Assembly: GCA_025934735.1 (NCBI GenBank)
Contig: JAICWP010000007.1
Location: forward strand, 1-64,000
Direction: 5' to 3'
DNA from: Terriglobales bacterium
Lineage (GTDB): Bacteria > Acidobacteriota > Terriglobia > Terriglobales > Acidobacteriaceae
Length of the DNA: 64,000 bases
This document shows, in pieces, positions 17,226 through 38,373 of the stretch. The notes beneath the pieces are model-generated. The model had not been told where the DNA came from. It was given only the letters and a program-made list of their open reading frames with translations, and made no database searches. Positions within the stretch are counted from its first letter, which is position 1. Each line of letters opens with the position of its first letter. A program made the translations under genes and the position numbers.

Positions 17226-17408
17226 CTTGTCACCACGGAGACACAGAGACACAGAGACACAGAGAAAATCGATTGCAGATTGTTAAGTCAAAAATGACGA
17301 CCCAAGTCCGCGGTTCAGAAATCGTCAATCGACAATGCCGATCTTCAATTTCCTTTCTCGGTGCTCTCTGTGTCCTCTGTGGTGAGTTTTGATCGTCTTT
17401 GGCGGCTT
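17226..17408. repeat. Intergenic inverted repeat between convergent genes
   Basis: CACCACGGAGACACAGAGAC and two further ACACAG units at 17231-17256 are mirrored by CTCTGTGTCCTCTGTGGTGA at 17367-17386. Inside lies a second weaker pair built on AATCGATTGC and GTCAATCGACAATGCC. It is non-coding, sits between convergent stops and resembles other gaps in this window, so I read it as a dispersed repeat that may also fold as a terminator. Confidence 0.6.
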
Positions 17409-25500: not shown

Positions 25501-27333
25501 CTATTGCGAACGCTTGGCGAATGGGCGATGCGCGACAATCCCGCGGGCTTCCTGAACCGTCACAGTCTGCCCTCCTGGCACGTTGCTCAGCTTATCCGTC
25601 TGCCCGCTGGGCCACCTGATCTCGACGGAATCTGCCTTGCCATGCTGGCCCAGACCGAACGTCAGTACCAGTTCGCTTTGCGATAAATAACTCGACCCGC
25701 TGCGCAACATCTGGTCCTGTTTCATACCGGCCACATCAACGTCCACCAGCGCCCCAATGCCGTCGCGGTTGGACTTGGTGCCCACCACCTTGATGCGCAG
25801 GCTGTTGTCCGTCCCACCATCATTTCGGAATAAGTAGGCCCGGCCACCGTTCGTGGTCAGCAGGATATCCAAGTCTCCGTCGTTATCAACGTCAGCGTAG
25901 GCCGCGCCCCGCGCCACTTTGGGGCTGGCGAAGGCGGCGCCCATCTCTTGGGTGACCTCCTGGAACTTGCCTCCGCCCCGGTTGTGGAACAGGTGCGGCG
26001 GCTCGGCGAACTTCACCGTCTTTTGCACCTTTTCGATCTGGTTCTCAATGTGGCCGTCGGCAACGAAAATGTCGGGCCATCCATCCAAATCGTAATCGAA
26101 AAAGAAACAGCCGAAACCCAGGGTAAGCAGGCTGTCGTGCCCAATTGAGGAGCGCGGCGCCTCGTCCACAAACAAGCCGTTCCCTTCATTGTGGTAGAGC
26201 GACACCATTTGGTTGGCAAAGTTTGCGATCAGAATGCTGGGGTGGCCCGAGTGGTCATAATCGGCGGTATCCACGCCCATGCCCGCCCGCGCCACACCAT
26301 CCTCGCTGAAGGCAATCCCCGCCGGCATTCCCTGCTCGGCGAACGTGCCGTTGTGCTTGTTCACGTACAGCTTGTTGGGTTGGGTATCATTGGAGACCAG
26401 GATGTCGGGCCAGCCATCACCGTTGTAGTCCAGAGTTGCGATCCCCAGGCTCTTGGAAGTCGGGTCATAGAGCCCGGCCTTTTGTGTGACATCTTCAAAC
26501 TTGCCGTGCCCCAGGTTGTGCCACAGCCTCAGCGACGCGCCCTTGTACGACTCCGGCGTGCAATACGACTTATGGCTGCCGTCCAGCGTGCAGTAGAGGT
26601 CGTCCTTTTCCGACCACTGCACGTAATTTGCGACCACCAGGTCGAGCAACCCGTCACGGTCATAGTCCACCCAGGCCGCTCCGGTGGAGAACTCGGTGGG
26701 TCCCCAGAGCCCCGCCGCCTTGGTCACATCGGTGAAGGTGCCGTTGCCGTTGTTGTGGAATAAGTGACTCTGTCCGAGTGCGGTGACAAAAATATCGTCG
26801 TGGCCGTCATTATCGTAATCGCCGACTGCTACTCCCATGCCATACATCTCCACCGCCAGGCCGGCCTTGCGAGTCACATCGGTGAAGGTACCGTTATGGT
26901 TGTTGTGATAAAGCTTCAGCGTGGTCGTCCCGTGAACCTTGTGCCCGGAAAAATCTTCGGAGTTGATCAGCAGGATGTCGGGCCAGCCGTCGTTGTCATA
27001 ATCAAGGAAGGCACAGCCCGGGCCCATGGTTTCCGGCAGCCACTTCTTGCCGAATGCGCCGTTGTTGTGCACGAAATGGATACCGGCGCGTGCAGTGATG
27101 TCGGTAAAGTGGATGTGAGAACTGCCCTGCTGTCCCACGGCGAAAGTGGTGATCAGCAGCGCCAGCACGAGCCCGACAATACTGCGTGGGCAACCGCGCG
27201 AGCTTTCCGAGACGGCTCGAGCACCGACGGCGCTTGACCTCAGCTTCGCACTCAGCGTGGAAGCGCACCGCTTCAGCCGTGCGATCAACGATTGCAGAAT
27301 GTTCCGGGCTTTAGCCCCTGTGGCCCGATTCAC
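25501..27333 (-). CDS. Secreted FG-GAP/UnbV (CRTAC1-type) protein
   Basis: This 610-residue protein has FG-GAP repeats (LDYDNDGWPDILL, DYDNDGHDDIFVTALG, DYDRDGLLDLVVAN, FDYDLDGWPDIFVAD, DVDNDGDLDILLT) and a C-terminal UnbV domain (GSSYLSQSELVLTFGLG, VEIRWPSGQTD). A hydrophobic export segment is at about residues 52-68 (VGLVLALLITTFAVG). The GTG at 27333 overlaps the upstream stop in GTGA, supporting coupling. The first 45 codons are unusually Arg/Ser/Ala-rich and include a GGGCTAAAGCCC palindrome, so the true start may be later, closer to the signal segment. Confidence 0.88.
   Translation of the reverse strand: MNRATGAKARNILQSLIARLKRCASTLSAKLRSSAVGARAVSESSRGCPRSIVGLVLALLITTFAVGQQGSSHIHFTDITARAGIHFVHNNGAFGKKWLPETMGPGCAFLDYDNDGWPDILLINSEDFSGHKVHGTTTLKLYHNNHNGTFTDVTRKAGLAVEMYGMGVAVGDYDNDGHDDIFVTALGQSHLFHNNGNGTFTDVTKAAGLWGPTEFSTGAAWVDYDRDGLLDLVVANYVQWSEKDDLYCTLDGSHKSYCTPESYKGASLRLWHNLGHGKFEDVTQKAGLYDPTSKSLGIATLDYNGDGWPDILVSNDTQPNKLYVNKHNGTFAEQGMPAGIAFSEDGVARAGMGVDTADYDHSGHPSILIANFANQMVSLYHNEGNGLFVDEAPRSSIGHDSLLTLGFGCFFFDYDLDGWPDIFVADGHIENQIEKVQKTVKFAEPPHLFHNRGGGKFQEVTQEMGAAFASPKVARGAAYADVDNDGDLDILLTTNGGRAYLFRNDGGTDNSLRIKVVGTKSNRDGIGALVDVDVAGMKQDQMLRSGSSYLSQSELVLTFGLGQHGKADSVEIRWPSGQTDKLSNVPGGQTVTVQEARGIVAHRPFAKRSQ
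27305..27320. repeat. GGGCTTTAGCCCC palindromic element inside the 5' end of an FG-GAP gene
   Basis: On the coding strand it reads GGGGCTAAAGCCCG, a short palindrome within codons 7-12 of the gene starting at 27333. The surrounding codons have atypical composition for a signal region, suggesting a mobile palindromic repeat placed at the gene junction or a misplaced start. Confidence 0.4.
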
Positions 27334-30194
27334 CGGCCCGCCCCCGCCGCCGAACCTTCATAGGTGTCATGCGAGGCCTGTTTTAGCATCGCCAGCGGTA
27401 CAGACACGTGCTCGTGGATCGCCTGCCGCTCATTGTTGTCGTCCGGATGCAACTGCCGGTACGGGCCGGTGATTGTCTGCTCGGCCTCATTAGCTTTAAA
27501 GCGCAAGTAGCGTACCTGGTGGTCGTGGGCGTCCTTCGCATCGCCCAAGCCGGTGTAGCAAAGCATCAGGTTGTAGTGGGCCATGAGATCTTCAGGGTCT
27601 ATCGCCAGCACCGAATCCAACACTTTCACCGCCCCTTTATAGCGCCGCTGCAGGAACAGGATGCGCCCCAGGTCATTGAGCGCAACCCGATCGCGGGGAT
27701 ACTGCGCCAGCACCCGGCGCAGATGCTGCTCAGCTTGGTCATAGTGCCCCTCTTCGCGCAGCACCTGGGCATAGAAGAAATGGGCGCGGGCCAGGTTGGG
27801 CGCAACGCTCAGCGCTTTCTCCAGCACGGCACGGGCCCGATCCAGATCGCCCTCCTGCACCGCGGCCCGTCCCATGTTGACCCAGCCATCCGGATTCTTG
27901 GGATTGATCTCAGTTATCTTCTGGAAAGCCGCTTCCGCTCCCTTCAAATCCCCTTGCAGCAGCAGCCCGATTCCGTAATCGTTCCAGCGCTGCCAATCAT
28001 CGGCATCGAGCACCACTTTTGGTTTGGGCTTCGGCGCCCTGTGGGCAACAACCGGCAGCGTGATCTCGTCCTCCGCCAAGGCCACGATCGGCAGGTTGGG
28101 AATCTTCTGTTCCTTGGCAGAAACGTCGTGCACTGGTCCATCCAGCAGGTAATGGGTATCGTCGTAATCCGGCGTGTGGCGCGGCACTTGCTTGGGATCG
28201 GGCGCACCCGAAAATGCAAATTGCGTGAACCACCAGGAAAACTTGCGGTAGCACAGGCGGGCGTGCAGCGTGATCTTTTCGCCCGCATTTTCCGGGATGT
28301 GAAGGCGGTAGTGTACTGTGTCGGCCGCTCCTGGCGGTATCAAATGCACATACACCACCGATCGTGTGGCCCAGGCGTTGCGCTTGTTGATTGGGTTGCC
28401 GTGCTCATCCACCTGCAGCGAACGGTAGAAGTGCGCTCCGGGATCTACCGGCCCGCTGCCGTTGTCCTCCACCATGCCGCTCCAGAACAGCACCTGGCCG
28501 CGGTTGTCGGTGGCCTTCAGTTCCAGCCAGGTATCGAAGGCATCCACCGTGCCGCCAGGAAAGAAATGTCCAACTTTCTTCGTTCGTACCACCACGTCCA
28601 CCCGGTCGGTGTCGCCCCGCCGCAGGGCCGGAAGCGCCCGGTTCAGCGGGGCTGTAATCGGCCGCACCTCGCCTACTTCCCCCCGAGGCAGATTAGATTC
28701 TGCTTCCTCGCCCACGGCGAAGGTGGTCGCCAGCTGCGGCGCTCCTGACAGGGGCACCAGAGGTTTCTTCGCGGCCGTTTCGGGCTGGTCCGGCGATAAC
28801 GCAAAAATATCCACGCTCACGATGCCGTTCTTGAGAAAACTTTCCTCGAAATGTAACTGCTTGGCGTCTTCGTTGGCCGTAGGTAGCGCCGTGTTGGCGG
28901 CAGGAAAGCGATGCGAATGAACGAATCCGTGGATGTTGCCGGCATCCTTTGAGGAGGTCAGCGGCATGTGGCAGTCCTGGCACTCCGCCGGTTTGGCCGG
29001 ATAGTAGAAGGAGCGCGCTCCCTGCCCCGAAACCCCGCTGGCCTGCCAGTTGTCATATTCGTTGAACCCCCTCTCCCAGCGGTAGTGGTTCACCGGAACA
29101 TCCAGGTGAACTTTGTGGCAACTGGAGCAGAACTCCGCCGTCTGGTTCCGCATGAACGGCTTCAGGAAAACCCGCCGGTGCGGCTCCGGGTTCAGATTCA
29201 CCAGGAAATCGTGCAGGGTGCGGATCACCGGGTTCTTGCTGGCGGCCAGGGCGTGCAACCGCGGATACTCCAGGTAGAAGTCGCCATTGCCCATGCTGCT
29301 CTTCACCCGCGCGATGGAGTGGCACATCATGCAGCCCAGGCCGGCCTGTGCTTCCGGGGTGTGAATGATCTTGCGGATGGGAGTATCCATCATTCCGCTG
29401 TAGAGCACCGCTGGATCGTGGCAGCCGCCGCACCACTTCGAGGGCCTGGTGCCCACGACGTCCTGCATGTACTCCACGCTCTTGCGGTACCACTGGTTGT
29501 TAAAGGATGAGAAGTGATGAGCCGAGCTGTACCACTCGCGGTAGATATCTTCATGGCAGCGCTTGCAGGAATCCGATTCCATGAAAAACTTGCTGGGGAT
29601 CTTCTGCCCGCCGTAAACCTGGGCCGAGCTGGGAAAAAACGGCCCTTTGGGACCGTCGCCCTCCCCATTCATGCTGGCGGGCGCGTCGGGAGGATTCTGT
29701 ATGCGTGCGCTGCTCTGCCAGTTCACATTACGTTGATACCAGGCTCCCGCGCTCAGGCTGGCCAGGATGGCCAGCGCCAGCACGGGCCGCGCCACCACCG
29801 CTCCCGGCAGCCACTTTAGCCATCCCCGCCGTTCTGCCCAATCGGCGAACAACAGCGCCATCGCTGCCAGCACTAGAACGATATGCAGGTACAGCCAGTT
29901 CCAATCTTCTCGCGGCGTGCCGGTGTAGATGAGCACCACGCCGATGGCCGCACCCGCCGCCAGCAGCAGCCAGCCCGCCTTTCCCGTGAGCGTTTGCGCC
30001 CGCAACCGCCGCCACAAAAATGGCACCAGTAAAATCGCCACTATCACGCCGGCAATTGTGTGCAGCAACACTACACCGGCATAAAGCACGTTGGGCTGGG
30101 GAAAGGGATACAGGTAGGCAGCGGAACCCACCAGGAAAAGCAGTAGTCCGAACAGCAGCTTGTAACTAAACGGACGATCCGATTGCGGCATCAC
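27330..30194 (-). CDS. Membrane-anchored pentahaem c-type cytochrome with C-terminal TPR domain
   Basis: This 954-residue protein starts with five predicted membrane helices (about 11-31, 36-60, 73-92, 98-118, 132-153). Five CxxCH haem sites follow: CKRCH 210, CGGCH 255, CMMCH 288, CSSCH 356 and CQDCH 405. The first, in the setting CHEDIYREWYSSAHHFSSF, resembles the cytochrome c554/hydroxylamine-oxidoreductase-related fold. A beta-rich region follows, then TPRs at about 725-905 (AEAAFQKITEINPKNPDGWVN). His45 and His104 lie inside helices 2 and 4 and could hold a b haem; this is speculation. The haem part should be periplasmic. It heads the cluster with three FG-GAP/UnbV genes; electron donor and acceptor are unknown. 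Confidence 0.9.
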   Translation of the reverse strand: MMPQSDRPFSYKLLFGLLLFLVGSAAYLYPFPQPNVLYAGVVLLHTIAGVIVAILLVPFLWRRLRAQTLTGKAGWLLLAAGAAIGVVLIYTGTPREDWNWLYLHIVLVLAAMALLFADWAERRGWLKWLPGAVVARPVLALAILASLSAGAWYQRNVNWQSSARIQNPPDAPASMNGEGDGPKGPFFPSSAQVYGGQKIPSKFFMESDSCKRCHEDIYREWYSSAHHFSSFNNQWYRKSVEYMQDVVGTRPSKWCGGCHDPAVLYSGMMDTPIRKIIHTPEAQAGLGCMMCHSIARVKSSMGNGDFYLEYPRLHALAASKNPVIRTLHDFLVNLNPEPHRRVFLKPFMRNQTAEFCSSCHKVHLDVPVNHYRWERGFNEYDNWQASGVSGQGARSFYYPAKPAECQDCHMPLTSSKDAGNIHGFVHSHRFPAANTALPTANEDAKQLHFEESFLKNGIVSVDIFALSPDQPETAAKKPLVPLSGAPQLATTFAVGEEAESNLPRGEVGEVRPITAPLNRALPALRRGDTDRVDVVVRTKKVGHFFPGGTVDAFDTWLELKATDNRGQVLFWSGMVEDNGSGPVDPGAHFYRSLQVDEHGNPINKRNAWATRSVVYVHLIPPGAADTVHYRLHIPENAGEKITLHARLCYRKFSWWFTQFAFSGAPDPKQVPRHTPDYDDTHYLLDGPVHDVSAKEQKIPNLPIVALAEDEITLPVVAHRAPKPKPKVVLDADDWQRWNDYGIGLLLQGDLKGAEAAFQKITEINPKNPDGWVNMGRAAVQEGDLDRARAVLEKALSVAPNLARAHFFYAQVLREEGHYDQAEQHLRRVLAQYPRDRVALNDLGRILFLQRRYKGAVKVLDSVLAIDPEDLMAHYNLMLCYTGLGDAKDAHDHQVRYLRFKANEAEQTITGPYRQLHPDDNNERQAIHEHVSVPLAMLKQASHDTYEGSAAGAGR

Positions 30195-30290
30195 TCGCTC
30201 TGTGATTTTTCCTCATGCTAAAGGCGCGCGGCATCCAGGCGCCAGGTTGAAATAAGAATTCCGAATGAGCCGGCCGTGCGAACCCCACTC

Positions 30291-30314
30291 CGCCCGCCAG
30301 CATACAAGCGGGCG
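30291..30314. other. GC-rich hairpin in the spacer upstream of the cytochrome gene
   Basis: CGCCCGC at 30291-30297 pairs with GCGGGCG at 30308-30314 around a ten-base loop. It lies about 80 bases after the stop of the regulator gene at 30396 and 97 bases before the cytochrome start. No T run follows on either strand, so it may be a weak or factor-assisted terminator. Confidence 0.35.
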
Positions 30315-30395
30315 TAACTTTAATGGTAAGAGAGCAGATCGGCAATAATACAAAAACACTACTCCGGCCAATGATCGTCCCGCGGGTCCAGCAGT

Positions 30396-32306
30396 TTAGG
30401 AAGTAAGCTTCATCCGACGCAGAAGGGCTTGAAAGCGCGGGTCGGAGCGGAGTGGGTCAAGCCTGGGGTCAGACCGGAGCGATAACCAACCATCATCAGG
30501 CTTCAGCAAGGCTTTCTGTAGCCAGGACAGAGCTTCGTCGTTGCGGCCCAGTCCAAGGTTCACCAAGGCGATGTCCAAACAGAAAGCGTGCGACTGCTTT
30601 TGCAATCCTTGCAGACGGGCTAGGATGCTCAAGGCCTGTTGCTTATGTCCCGAAATGGCGTAGAGATATCCACGCTCCGCCCACAACGGATCCCCGCCGG
30701 TATGGGCGCTGAGCTCATACTCATGGATGGCGGCTTCATACATGCCCTTCCGCTCATAGATATGTCCCAGTGTCTCGTGCCCCTTGGGAAAGTGCGGGTC
30801 CATAGCGAACACGAGCTTCATCTGGGCCAGCGCAGCGTCTGATTGACCTGCGCTCGAAAGCACTTCCGCCAGTGCCGAACGAATGATCAAGGAGAGCGGA
30901 TCGAGCTTTAGCGCCTCCGCGATTTCTACCCGGCATTCCTGAGAGCGGCCGGTCGCCTCCAGCACGAAGGCATACCAATGGTGCGCGGTGGCGTAATTAG
31001 GATCCAGTGCGATGGCAGTCTTGAGTGTTTGATCGGCGGCAGTCACGTCCACCTCACGGAACAATTCGATGAAGCCCAGGGCGGTACGGGCTTCGCCGGA
31101 AGTGGGATCTAGCTCCACCGCTTTCAAAGCTGCCGCCTTCGCCTCGGCCGTTGGGCCACCGCTCTCAGCCAATCCGGCGTAAGCCGCTGCGTACTGAGGG
31201 TCCACCTCAATAGCTTGACGGAAATATTTTGCGGCAGTCGCATAACCCACAGAGGTTCTCTTGTTCCAGTAATAGCGGCCGAGCAGATAAGCCTCGTGGG
31301 CTTCGGGATCAGGGCTGTGGCGCTGCATCGTCCGGGGTGATTCCAGTGCCACCGATACGCCTACCTGCCGTGTAATCTCTCGCGCCACGTCATCTTCGAG
31401 CTGCACCAGATCACGGATGTCTCGATCGTAATCGGCGGCCCAGACATGCGCCTGATCCGAAACTTCCACCAGCTGAGCAGTGACCCGGAGTTTTTTCCCC
31501 GTGCGGCGCACGCTGCCCTCCAAGACGTAGCTCACGCCAAGCTCTTTCCCGATCTGGCTGATGGTTCGGGGGGAGTGCTTGTACGTCATGGCAGAAGTGC
31601 GCCCAATCACGGCCAAGCGCGTTGGGTTCAGATTCCCCAGTTGTTCGCTCAATTCCTCGGTGATGCCGTCACTGAGGTACTCCAGGGTGGAGTCGCCGCT
31701 GAGATTTTGGAAAGGCAGCACCACCAGCATGATTTTTCCAGGATGCGCCTGTTCCCGTAATTTGTGCCGATTCAGGTTTGAGCCCCCCATCCCGAACAGG
31801 ACAATGCCAACCAGGATGGCAGCCAATACCATGGCGCGTCGCCCTTGCAGCCAGGTCCGTTGGTTGCGGGAAATTGGCTCTACAAGAACGGGGCTGGGCG
31901 CAATCGCCGGTGTCGGCAGCGCAGGGAGCGGCTCTACCTCTGACTGGGCGGGGACGGGGGCCGGATTGACGGCGAATATTTGCTCCACTTTACCAATGAA
32001 GCGATAGCCTACGCCGGGAACCGTTTCGATGTATTTGGGACTTTCGGAGGAATCGCTGAGGGCAGCCCGCAGCTTGGTAACAGCAACGCTCAGACCCTTG
32101 TCATAATCTACAAAAACGCCCTCACCCCATAACAGACCACGCAGATCGCTGCGCGTTACCAGCTCTCCGGAGTGTTCCACCAGGGTTTGGAGGAGCTGCA
32201 GGGGCTTGCGTTCCAGCTTCAGCCGGATACCGAACTTGCTCAGCTCATTTCGGTTCAGGTCCAGTTCGTAAGGGCCAAACCGGTACCGCTGGACTGCAGA
32301 ATGCAT
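30396..32306 (-). CDS. CadC-like transcriptional regulator: winged helix, membrane helix, FlgO-like and TPR domains
   Basis: This 636-residue protein starts with an OmpR/PhoB-type DNA-binding domain at about 8-103 (FGPYELDLNRNELSKFG, RSDLRGLLWGEGVFVDYDKGL, KYIETVPGVGYRFIG). One membrane helix lies near 160-178 (MVLAAILVGIVLFGMGG). Then comes a FlgO-like region (VVLPFQNLSGDSTLEYLSDG, YVLEGSVRR, DLVQLEDDVA) and a run of TPRs to the end. The architecture suggests a one-component membrane-bound regulator whose outer part senses or binds a partner, common in Acidobacteriota. It lies upstream of the cytochrome cluster on the same strand, 201 bases away, and is divergent from a secreted-protein gene whose shared spacer carries phased repeats. 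Confidence 0.9.
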   Translation of the reverse strand: MHSAVQRYRFGPYELDLNRNELSKFGIRLKLERKPLQLLQTLVEHSGELVTRSDLRGLLWGEGVFVDYDKGLSVAVTKLRAALSDSSESPKYIETVPGVGYRFIGKVEQIFAVNPAPVPAQSEVEPLPALPTPAIAPSPVLVEPISRNQRTWLQGRRAMVLAAILVGIVLFGMGGSNLNRHKLREQAHPGKIMLVVLPFQNLSGDSTLEYLSDGITEELSEQLGNLNPTRLAVIGRTSAMTYKHSPRTISQIGKELGVSYVLEGSVRRTGKKLRVTAQLVEVSDQAHVWAADYDRDIRDLVQLEDDVAREITRQVGVSVALESPRTMQRHSPDPEAHEAYLLGRYYWNKRTSVGYATAAKYFRQAIEVDPQYAAAYAGLAESGGPTAEAKAAALKAVELDPTSGEARTALGFIELFREVDVTAADQTLKTAIALDPNYATAHHWYAFVLEATGRSQECRVEIAEALKLDPLSLIIRSALAEVLSSAGQSDAALAQMKLVFAMDPHFPKGHETLGHIYERKGMYEAAIHEYELSAHTGGDPLWAERGYLYAISGHKQQALSILARLQGLQKQSHAFCLDIALVNLGLGRNDEALSWLQKALLKPDDGWLSLRSDPRLDPLRSDPRFQALLRRMKLTS

Positions 32307-32404: not shown

Positions 32405-32449
32405 TTAGACCTTAGCACCAAATTAGCACGACCTTAGCTTGACGCTAAC
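32405..32449. promoter_or_regulatory. 11-bp phased TTAG direct repeats, candidate winged-helix operator
   Basis: TTAGCAC, TTAGCAC and TTAGCTT start at 32412, 32423 and 32434, exactly 11 bp apart; another TTAGAC begins at 32405 and an inverted GCTAA at 32444. OmpR/PhoB-type proteins bind direct repeats phased by about one helical turn. The repeats lie in the 223-bp divergent spacer beside a gene encoding just such a DNA-binding domain. Confidence 0.5.
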
Positions 32450-32529
32450 ATTGCCCCGCTGCAATTGTGCTCCCCCAACGCGGACCAGTTCCGGTCCTGG
32501 CTGGCCAAAAATTCGTAAGGAGACAAACT

Positions 32530-33261
32530 GTGAAGAAAATTATCTCGCTCAGAACTGTCCTGGGCCTCAGCGCGATCCTGTGCCTGGGCATGGCCGTGCC
32601 CTGCATGGCGAAGAACAGCACAGGTTGCGGCTACAACGTAACCTCCGTCTTGTACGACTCGGATAGCCAAGTGCCTGCCCAACCGTTTCAATACCAGAGC
32701 GACGGGTTGGGAGCATACACGACGTTTAGATCATCTGGTAATAACGCCGTTAGCTCAATTATCCAGAGTTCTTGCAGTTGGGCCCTGGACACCACTGGTT
32801 CCACATCACGGGGAATCGTGGTGACGCTCGCCTATCCTTCCTCGAGTGGTTCTCCGGCGCCATTTACGGGCCCGCAAGAGATCCATGGCGTCTTCCATAC
32901 CCAATGTTTTGATAATCCTGCGAACAACAGCCTGAACTTCGGCACCATGACTTTCGTCGGCCAGACCTTGGCCTGCCCCATGCATCTAGTCTTTACCTAT
33001 AACGGTGTTTTGTACAACTTAGGGTTGGCTCCGCCCACTTTCTCCGGGACATCCTACATGCAGGTAACCTGCACCGGCGCGACCGGAGGGCAGTGCAATC
33101 AGTGGACGGTCCAGCCGGATCCTGCCACTTCCGTTATCAACCCACAAACGAACCAGCTTTCGGGAATTGCTGAATTGTTCCTGCCCTCCTGCAATGGCTG
33201 CGGGAACGGCACTCCCCTGGGCCAGTATCTGGTGTCGTTCAGTTTCCTCATTCACAAGTGA
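32530..33261 (+). CDS. Secreted cysteine-rich hypothetical protein
   Basis: I do not recognise the family. The GTG at 32530 has AAGGAG eight bases upstream, so I use it rather than an earlier in-frame start; the product has 243 residues. A signal peptide is clear (KKIISLRTVLGLSAILCLG, cleavage near CMAK). The mature part is rich in Ser, Thr, Gly, Asn and aromatic residues, is predicted mostly beta, and has eight Cys that could form four disulfides. It is likely an exported protein. It shares its promoter region with the CadC-like regulator, which may control it. Confidence 0.75.
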   Translation: MKKIISLRTVLGLSAILCLGMAVPCMAKNSTGCGYNVTSVLYDSDSQVPAQPFQYQSDGLGAYTTFRSSGNNAVSSIIQSSCSWALDTTGSTSRGIVVTLAYPSSSGSPAPFTGPQEIHGVFHTQCFDNPANNSLNFGTMTFVGQTLACPMHLVFTYNGVLYNLGLAPPTFSGTSYMQVTCTGATGGQCNQWTVQPDPATSVINPQTNQLSGIAELFLPSCNGCGNGTPLGQYLVSFSFLIHK

Positions 33262-33497: not shown

Positions 33498-34697
33498 ATG
33501 AAAACCAAACTCCTGTATCCACTGATGTTTTTGTGTCTAGTGTTCTACACGAGTTGCGGTGGCGGAACATCAACACCCTCACCCTCACCCTCACCAACCC
33601 CAACTCCAACCCCAACCCCAAGTAGTACCTGTTCAAATCTGTCGCCAGGAACACCGCCCGCTGGTTCGGAACTGTTCTATCTCGGCGACAATGCCGGTTG
33701 CATTTACGGCTATGGCCTGGACCCTACTTCTGGCAATCTAACTCCGATAGCGATCAACAGCATGTCTGCGAAGGCCAACGTCCGGCTGGCAGCGGATTCA
33801 GGCGGGCAGGTTCTGTATTCCTCAGATGCAGCTCTCAACGTGCCCAATGTCTCTTCTTGGATTGTGAATAAGCATACTGGTACTTTGACCTCTAACCCTG
33901 CGGTCCAACTGTCAGCGCCCCCAGGCAAACTAGTCCCTTTTTCTACCTATCTCTATGCCATTGCAGACCCGTATGCAAATGCCAAGGTTGCAACGATGTG
34001 GGTATTCAAGATCAATCCATTGAATGGGGCACTGTCGCTGCTGTCCGATCACACTACTCAACTTCCCGGAGTACCGTTTGGTATGGCGATTGACCCCACA
34101 GGGTCTTTCCTGTTTGTCCTTTGGGACGGTGTTCCTGGGGGAAAAATTTCCACGTTATCGCGTAACCCTACTACTGGTCAGGTGACGGTTTTATCGCCGC
34201 CCGTTGACACTGGAGGCTTGGCCCCTGCCGCCGTTGCTGTTACGGCGGACGGTAACTTTGTAGTCGTGCTCCATCAGAAATCGAATAATCTGGCGGTATT
34301 TTCCTTGGACCATAGCACGGGTGCGCTAACTGCCGTGCCTGGCTCTCCATTTGCCAGCGGTCCACAGCCGGGGGCAATGACAATTGATCCTAGTGGCAAG
34401 TTTGTGCTCGTCGCTGATTCCGGAAATGACAACCTGACGCCCTACGCCATTGACTCCGCAGGCAGCTTGACAGCCGGAACGCCGGTGTTTCTCGGAGAAG
34501 CGAATTCCCAGCCGTCAGCAATCGCTGTGGACCCAGCTGGCAAATTCGTATTCGTCGGCATATTCAACCAAAAGGTAGCGGGATTCACTCTGGACCCAAG
34601 CACAGGGTCATTGACGCCCATGCCGGGTTCGCCATTTTCGGGGTCGCCGCAATTTGTGACTAACGATATGGTCTTCGTTCCGGGGGTGACACAGTAG
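33498..34697 (+). CDS. Beta-propeller (lactonase/YVTN-like) lipoprotein
   Basis: The ATG at 33498 has AAAGG upstream and gives a 399-residue protein; the open frame extends further 5' without a better start. The signal segment ends FYTSCGGG, a lipoprotein-like cysteine although the -3 residue is not ideal. A Ser/Pro/Thr linker follows. The rest shows repeats such as FAIDPTGSFLFVL-type strands: MAIDPTGSFLFVLWDG, VTADGNFVVVLHQ, MTIDPSGKFVLVADSGNDN, IAVDPAGKFVFVGIF, each followed by STGALTAVPGSPF-like text. This is the 6-phosphogluconolactonase-like seven-bladed propeller type often seen in acidobacterial surface proteins. Enzymatic activity should not be assumed. Confidence 0.82.
   Translation: MKTKLLYPLMFLCLVFYTSCGGGTSTPSPSPSPTPTPTPTPSSTCSNLSPGTPPAGSELFYLGDNAGCIYGYGLDPTSGNLTPIAINSMSAKANVRLAADSGGQVLYSSDAALNVPNVSSWIVNKHTGTLTSNPAVQLSAPPGKLVPFSTYLYAIADPYANAKVATMWVFKINPLNGALSLLSDHTTQLPGVPFGMAIDPTGSFLFVLWDGVPGGKISTLSRNPTTGQVTVLSPPVDTGGLAPAAVAVTADGNFVVVLHQKSNNLAVFSLDHSTGALTAVPGSPFASGPQPGAMTIDPSGKFVLVADSGNDNLTPYAIDSAGSLTAGTPVFLGEANSQPSAIAVDPAGKFVFVGIFNQKVAGFTLDPSTGSLTPMPGSPFSGSPQFVTNDMVFVPGVTQ
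33576..33622 (+). repeat. Six-base coding microsatellite for a Ser/Thr-Pro linker
   Basis: CACCCT units followed by AACCCC/AACTCC units encode the SPSPSPTPTPTPTP linker of the lipoprotein. The unit is six bases, so slippage would change linker length without frameshift. Confidence 0.7.
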
Positions 34698-36876: not shown

Positions 36877-36929
36877 TAGTTTTCGCTGGAAGCACTGTGC
36901 GGTACCACAGCTCGGGACGGCGCTGCTTA

Positions 36930-37448
36930 ATGGAGAGAAACAAAGGATTTTCGCTGATTGAGTTGCTGATCGTGGTGGCGATTATGCTGATTATCGCCGC
37001 CATCGCCATTCCCAACCTGATTCGCGCTCGCATTGCGGCGAACGAGTCCTCCGCCGTCTCCTCTGTCCGTACTATCATGACCGCACAATCAGCCTATTCC
37101 ACCGCTTTCCCCAACATCGGTTATGCCGTAGCCCTGGTCAACTTAGGTGGGTCTCCTCCTTGCACTCCCACTTCGGCCAATGGTTGCCTCATAGACACGG
37201 TTCTGGCCAGCGGCACCAAAGGTGGCTACTCCTTTAATGCGGTGGGTGGAAACCCGAGTCCCCAGGGTGCCAATACCAGCTTCTCCGTCGGGGCTGCTCC
37301 CAACTCGCCCAACCTTTCAGGGGTGCGCCGTTTTTGCGGCTTGAACGACAACGTCATCCACTACGATCTCAACCCGGGCCTGGTTTCCACGCTGCCTACC
37401 GCCACCGACTGCAGCAACGCGCCCTTTGCCAGTCAGATCGTGCAATAG
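36930..37448 (+). CDS. Type IV pilin-like protein (pilin 1)
   Basis: From ATG 36930 the prepilin has 172 residues. The leader MERNKG precedes the prepilin peptidase site before FSLIELLIVVAIMLI, with Glu at +5 and a long hydrophobic helix, as in major pilins and pseudopilins. The region after the helix (RARIAANESSAVSSVRTI) is typical of acidobacterial pilins. The C-terminal globular part has four Cys, which could give two disulfides (PPCTPTSANGC, RRFCG, ATDC). Leader removal and assembly occur in the inner membrane. It is followed by a paralogue about 400 bases away. An earlier GTG at 36897 would lengthen the leader and is rejected. Confidence 0.92.
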   Translation: MERNKGFSLIELLIVVAIMLIIAAIAIPNLIRARIAANESSAVSSVRTIMTAQSAYSTAFPNIGYAVALVNLGGSPPCTPTSANGCLIDTVLASGTKGGYSFNAVGGNPSPQGANTSFSVGAAPNSPNLSGVRRFCGLNDNVIHYDLNPGLVSTLPTATDCSNAPFASQIVQ

Positions 37449-37845: not shown

Positions 37846-38373
37846 ATGAAGAAGAACAAGGGTTTTTCACTTATCGAACTGCTGATTGTGGTGGCGATCA
37901 TTCTCATCATCGCTGCCATCGCCATTCCCAACCTGTTGCGCGCCCGCATTGCCGCTAACGAGTCGTCCGCGGTGAGCTCGTTGCGCACCATCAACACTGC
38001 TGAAGTGTCGTACGCCACTGCCTATCCGAACGTTGGCTATTCGACCGGCTTGGCCGACCTGGGACCGGGGTCTACCGGCACTTGCCCCACCACGGGTCCG
38101 ATTGCGACCAGCTCGTGCTTCATTGACAGCGTGCTGGCTTCCGGCACCAAGAGCGGCTACAGCTTCGGTTACGCCGCTGCGGCTGGTGCCAACGGCGGCG
38201 CCAACGTTACCTATGGCGCGGGTGCGGTTCCGGTGAACTTCAACCAGACCGGCGTGCGCCAGTTCTGCTCCGCGGAAGATGCGGTCATCCGTTATGCCGC
38301 AGGTTCCAGCAGCGCCGCTCCGGTGACTGTCTCCGCTACCTGCTTGGCCAGCCCCTTCAGCCCGCTGCAGTAA
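37846..38373 (+). CDS. Type IV pilin-like protein (pilin 2)
   Basis: The ATG at 37846 has GAGGGG five bases upstream and gives a 175-residue prepilin with leader MKKNKG before FSLIELLIVVAIILI, and Glu at +5. The conserved RARIAANESSAVSSLRTINTAE follows, then a Gly/Ala/Ser-rich globular part with Cys near GTC, SSC, FC and TC. It is a close paralogue of pilin 1, and both have sigma54 promoters. A strong terminator follows, so it is a monocistronic unit. This is probably a major pilin, but no pilus machinery (PilB/C/Q) is in the window. Confidence 0.94.
   Translation: MKKNKGFSLIELLIVVAIILIIAAIAIPNLLRARIAANESSAVSSLRTINTAEVSYATAYPNVGYSTGLADLGPGSTGTCPTTGPIATSSCFIDSVLASGTKSGYSFGYAAAAGANGGANVTYGAGAVPVNFNQTGVRQFCSAEDAVIRYAAGSSSAAPVTVSATCLASPFSPLQ

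Follow-up and report, generated by a model that had tools for sequence, protein, structure and literature searches.

Within the 64 kb window, by which we mean the whole stretch of DNA analysed, the genes of a winged-helix regulator and of a secreted protein diverge from a spacer of 223 bp, and this spacer contains three TTAGC words (Table 1). An earlier note on this DNA had described the words as direct repeats with exact 11-bp phasing, and all three starts were verified in the sequence. They are better read on the minus strand, that of the regulator, as three copies of GCTAA, the orientation common to the related operators described below. A similar TTAG(A) at 32405 does not share the phase of the triple, and one inverted copy, GCTAA, lies at 32444-32448.

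Table 1. Coordinates of the features at the locus
Feature	Position	Strand	Basis
Regulator: winged-helix domain (Pfam residues 29-103), membrane-segment-like stretch, TPR region	30396..32306	-	Pfam and translation
Repeat copy 1, TTAGC on + / GCTAA on -	32412..32416	-	sequence
Repeat copy 2, 11 bp from copy 1	32423..32427	-	sequence
Repeat copy 3, 11 bp from copy 2; abuts putative -35 box	32434..32438	-	sequence
Putative -35 box TTGACG of the secreted-protein gene	32439..32444	+	inferred from sequence
CATTG on + = CAATG on -; counterpart of the family CAAT box	32449..32453	-	layout comparison
Putative -10 box AATTGT; TG upstream at 32460-32461; 18 bp from TTGACG	32463..32468	+	inferred
AAGGAGA, likely ribosome-binding site of the secreted-protein gene	32517..32523	+	sequence
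Divergent gene, 243 aa, signal-peptide-like start; likely target	32530..33261	+	translation, domain scan
Lactonase/beta-propeller protein, lipoprotein-like start; next gene downstream	33498..34697	+	sequence, domain scan

The winged-helix domain that the earlier note had seen in the regulator was confirmed by a Trans_reg_C match of 58.9 bits (Pfam cut-off 26.2), and its nearest solved structures are ToxR (E 2.4e-13), a response regulator and CadC. Between this domain and the TPR region, whose Pfam matches begin at about residue 355, a hydrophobic, membrane-segment-like stretch was recognised by eye in the translation at about residues 157-175, so that an N-terminal winged helix is followed by a membrane segment as in ToxR and CadC. 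The score with the CadC equivalog, model NF007540, was 45.5 bits, far below its cut-off of 400. Pfam matches were limited to Trans_reg_C and the TPRs, with neither a BTA domain of the SARP type nor a phospho-receiver domain, and the regulator is a one-component protein. Its own genome displays 13 winged-helix matches. A scan of genome contigs revealed 12 distant relatives and no close orthologue, the best full-length matches being about 42% identical, and no orthologous spacer was found in which conservation of the window's own site could be followed.

The secreted protein matched no Pfam or NCBIfam family and showed no relatives outside its own genome among 31 genomes. Its only weak relative is a paralogue in the same genome (L262, G000:C34:179105-179674) with 31% identity, and no winged-helix gene was found near this paralogue in the fetched stretch. 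The lactonase-like gene downstream, which we regard as a possible second gene of the target unit, encodes a Pro-Thr/Ser linker in a simple-repeat stretch at about 33577-33625. Elsewhere in the window, a tandem pair of similar pilin-like genes is located at 36897-37448 and about 37900-38373 (GFSLIELLIVVAI starts), and 25501-30194 carries genes for a cytochrome c554-like/TPR protein and then an FG-GAP/UnbV-ASPIC protein, apparently in one operon. The earlier note had not seen the phased repeat in front of this cytochrome operon, and indeed no phased pair, even with one mismatch allowed, is present in 30195-30395; the operon therefore shows no sign of the same site.

TTAGC is the only exact 5-mer triple at a spacing of 11 in the 64 kb window; at the other spacings between 8 and 15, we found one tandem array with a unit of 8 bp (at 17238) and one triple each at 12, 13 and 15. 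With at most one mismatch, the TTAGC triple occurs once in its own genome of 4.94 Mb. When the 223-bp spacer was shuffled 2000 times with its dinucleotides preserved, no 5-mer triple arose at spacing 11, and three shuffles had one at any spacing from 8 to 15.

The exact TTAGC triple was rejected as a query for related sites: over 299 genomes of the class, it matched in 28, the reversed control was by eye at least as frequent, and only one of the 29 other matches fetched (L077, G309) lay near a winged-helix gene. A single word is the wrong query because the cores differ between paralogues. Related sites were found in the 450 bp upstream of 142 distinct homologous winged-helix genes, our discovery set. 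From this set and from the held-out set described below, hits whose domain sequence exactly repeated another or that had less than 120 bp upstream had been dropped before counting. Allowing one mismatch, 15 of the 142 regions contained a 6-mer triple at spacing 11, and no other spacing between 7 and 21 was represented in more than four regions; shuffled sequences averaged about 0.2, and coding sequence yielded no triple at spacing 11. Read in the gene's own orientation, the cores of these 15 triples are related, e.g., CTGAA, GGTAA, GGTGA, GCTAA and TGTCA. CAATG often precedes the triples, and TCAATG was present in 32 of the 142 regions (11 for its complement). Self-similarity of the sequence after CAATG was 0.348 at lag 11 and 0.318 at lag 22, compared with 0.23-0.27 at other lags, and this was absent after CATTG.

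Aligned and counted from CAA, the sites revealed T at +14, +25 and +36 and A at +16, +27 and +38; the layout was thus defined as CAAT followed by three T-N-A elements at +14, +25 and +36, with at least five of the six bases matching. After CAATG, it was found at +14 in 19 of 83 discovery sites and in 12 of 40 sites of a held-out set of 56 regions fetched after the layout had been defined. Each of eleven other offsets gave none or one in the discovery and held-out sets (held-out: one site at +15, none at the ten others), and the reverse-complement control at +14 gave 0/51 and 1/19, respectively. The plain triple test was weak on the held-out set, with 2/56 at spacing 11 and one each at 9 and 20. 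Because one order contributes several related sites to the discovery set, reduced sets were made to address relatedness, and in a non-redundant set of 75 sequences (domain less than 60% identical), the layout stood at +14 in 18 and at any other offset from 5 to 23 in at most three. Over all 198 regions, a period of 11 yielded 46 matches and other periods 0-14, while the layout was matched in only 53 of these regions; a fourth repeat is not general (T in six, A in eight of 46). A further 29 regions, domain hits in L286-L314 that passed the score and length limits, nearly all of them from other classes of the phylum and a few sharing the family of the window, showed triples at spacing 11 in five and at none of 14 other spacings. 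A subgroup of three (L174, L189 and L201) with a recognition helix of type NINNIVRKIR displays GTATAT-type repeats in the same phase, which the strict layout test misses.

By these comparisons, the three evenly spaced words belong to a design found beside many related regulators of the same phylum. At the window, an 11-bp phased triple in the shared orientation lies upstream of the winged-helix gene, and its repeats, orientation, core type (GNTAA) and place all agree with the family. Its CAAT box exceeds the usual distance to the repeats by 3 bp, CAA and the first T-N-A being 17 apart (T at +17) and not 14 (13-15), and no recognisable -10 box follows the TTG derived from the window's CAATG; the site is a spacing variant of the family layout. 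That the three words are a chance pattern without function could be argued from this displaced CAAT box and from the lack of a confirming orthologue, but the outcome of the shuffles and the period, orientation, core type and place shared with related sites make it very improbable.

The similarity of the cores was found to follow the identity of the recognition helices. Among 54 sites, including that of the window, the correlation over all pairs was r 0.53, with r 0.43 for pairs less than 60% identical outside the helix and 0.41 for those below 55%, and in none of the pair sets was this reached in 2000 permutations. For the rest of the domain, r was about 0 in distant pairs (less than 60% identical). 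Two correspondences stood out: F at helix position 7 with G at +3 after T-N-A (8/8 versus 4/46), and N at helix position 10 with C at +1, i.e., T-C-A (7/11 versus 2/43). The code was weaker in a reduced set of 33 representatives of the 54 (F7-G 5/5 versus 4/28; N10-C 4/8 versus 2/25). Outside the fitted set, one F7 regulator from another class has the expected TGAG repeats, and another regulator with TGAG repeats has H at helix position 7. Helix positions 3, 7, 10 and 11 align to ToxR S86, Q90, S93 and T94, in a numbering inferred from residue names in excerpts of PMC8517210. The earlier note's reading, in which OmpR/PhoB-type domains bind direct repeats one helical turn apart, is supported by the period of 11 bp in the homologues' phased repeats and by the covariation of core and helix.

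Searching 21 genomes for the exact layout gave 13 occurrences, against two for the reversed control. A winged-helix gene was found within 1.5 kb of six of the 13 and of none of the other seven. Three of the matches without an adjacent winged-helix gene have T-C-A-type cores and precede similar genes in three genomes. These divergent genes (L276:3304-4041 in G000:C9, L277 and L278) lie behind the phased T-C-A-type repeats with no immediately adjacent winged-helix gene, and the L276 copy is CDP-alcohol phosphatidyltransferase-like. The gene is possibly a conserved non-neighbour target; about 1.3 kb from the L276 (G000:C9) site, the own genome has a winged-helix gene whose helix carries N at position 10, in agreement with the code. 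Such matches indicate that regulons are not always confined to the divergent neighbour. They could also be taken to mean that another OmpR/PhoB-type protein, e.g., a response regulator, binds the repeats and that the adjacent gene is a bystander, since OmpR/PhoB-type proteins also bind 11-bp phased repeats (excerpts of PMC4832192) and for seven of the 13 layout matches no winged-helix gene is nearby. Covariation between the core and the recognition helix encoded next to it, and the single occurrence of the triple in its own genome, speak against the bystander and leave it quite improbable.

In the family, the CAA of the layout is TTG on the other strand, mostly TTGA or TTGC, which corresponds to the -35 box of the divergent promoter. 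Over the 53 layout sites, a sigma70-like -10 box, with A in 38 and T in 35 of them, stands 17 bp after TTG. This promoter is preceded, not spanned, by the repeats, whose distance from it is fixed in 46 of the 53. Downstream, a divergent ORF with a hydrophobic, signal-peptide-like start was picked at 44 of the 53 sites, whereas the same pick, a crude hydrophobicity rule on ORFs chosen by a simple score, gave 260/2000 at random anchors and 82/144 at winged-helix genes without the layout. Since the latter also score high, the test speaks more strongly for the link to exported proteins than for the layout. Ten divergent proteins were scanned, revealing aspartyl-protease-like, FG-GAP, DUF4440, DUF7948 and CDP-alcohol phosphatidyltransferase-like members and five without a family; four more included one PEP-CTERM-like and one rhodanese-like protein, both below cut-off, and two without a match. 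A membrane segment was present in 22 of 23 layout regulators visible over at least 250 aa, and in 73 of 89 of all such regulators.

For the window, the consensus promoter scan of the spacer gave no match at threshold and did not list TTGACG/AATTGT, which is nevertheless the best reading of a promoter here, with a spacing of 18 bp and the TG upstream of the presumed -10 box. It would place the repeats at about -41 to -37, -52 to -48 and -63 to -59, which is near the ToxR operator of ompU, which the excerpts of PMC7496328 locate at -51 to -37, just upstream of the -35 region.

As to the regulators' own promoters, 63 of 198 regions have TGnTAnA[CA]T in forward orientation in the 130 bp before the domain, against none in reverse or in coding sequence; this motif is likely to be the extended -10 box of the regulator genes themselves, away from the repeats. 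The earlier note had proposed that the regulator controls both itself and the secreted protein. Control of the divergent secreted-protein gene is supported, as the family repeats adjoin a divergent promoter that usually leads to a signal-peptide-like ORF; self-regulation is weakly supported, many homologues having their own -10-like box away from the repeats. The same regulator could instead occupy the repeats to repress the divergent gene, or mainly to repress or activate itself, given that the operator lies between both genes, that a protein bound at the window's third repeat could block polymerase at the abutting putative -35 box, and that several sites show a word resembling TAAGTT beyond the repeats, towards the regulator gene. 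However, the fixed position upstream of the divergent promoter is the usual place of an activator and many homologues carry their own -10-like box elsewhere, which is why we regard repression or mainly self-directed control as unlikely.

We therefore consider it probable that the repeats are the operator of the adjacent membrane-anchored winged-helix/TPR regulator, which would activate the divergent gene, usually one for an exported protein. In a head-to-tail arrangement, every 11-bp repeat would hold one winged-helix domain, whose recognition helix would read the T-N-A core together with the bases beside it. Because the array lies just upstream of the divergent -35 box, the bound regulator would help RNA polymerase at a weak promoter and so turn on the divergent gene, and the TPR part may sense a periplasmic signal. 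Whereas the repeats, their phase and place throughout the family, the family's divergent promoter signature and the covariation of helix and core can be read from the sequences, we infer binding, activation rather than repression and the sensing of a periplasmic signal. In a broader reading, to which we give an even chance, the winged-helix/TPR membrane regulators of the phylum would form separate wires, each with its own three-fold 11-bp operator, a helix-to-base code and its own divergent exported-protein gene; if so, knowing the recognition helix would suffice to predict which targets an uncharacterised paralogue controls. A shared layout and code would allow targets to be predicted and tested for numerous regulators and would tie an expanded regulator family to the control of exported proteins.

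That tandem winged helices bind repeats spaced by one turn is already known, as excerpts on PhoP (PMC4832192), SARPs (PMC10936776) and ToxR (PMC8517210, PMC7496328) describe. Our literature searches found no published account of the layout, the divergent exported-protein pairing or the covarying core in this family, and no papers on what the phylum's winged-helix/TPR regulators bind, the matches dealing with other organisms or subjects.

Among known systems, the combination of winged helix and TPR is shared with the HilA family, and HilA also binds repeats one turn apart. HilA/EilA (NF009037) was the best-scoring NCBIfam model for the regulator, but its 70.3 bits are far below the curated cut-off of 589, and the best-matching stretch, residues 186-472, lies outside the DNA-binding domain. 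Unlike our regulator, SARPs carry a BTA domain and are not known to have a membrane segment. They resemble it in their OmpR-type domain and in direct repeats near the -35 box of a weak promoter helped by the activator; for SARPs such as AfsR, excerpts of PMC10936776 give repeats at a spacing of 11 or 22 bp that lie partly on or next to the -35 element, with the 3' repeat 8 bp from the -10 box, while the array described here lies upstream of the -35 box. With the response regulators PhoP and PhoB, it shares repeats one helical turn apart and, as a prediction, tandem binding of the kind outlined for PhoP in the excerpted PMC4832192, where the recognition helix reads the major groove; in contrast to them, no receiver domain was found. 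ToxR and CadC come close in having an N-terminal winged helix, a membrane segment, a periplasmic part and a direct-repeat operator, and the ToxR box, TNAAA-N5-TNAAA in the excerpts of PMC8517210 and PMC7496328, has the T-N-A core in common with the repeats of the window family. ToxR uses two repeats at 10 bp, whereas three at 11 bp are found here, TPRs follow the membrane segment, and many paralogues exist per genome, each having a core of its own and often a divergent secreted-protein gene as its partner.
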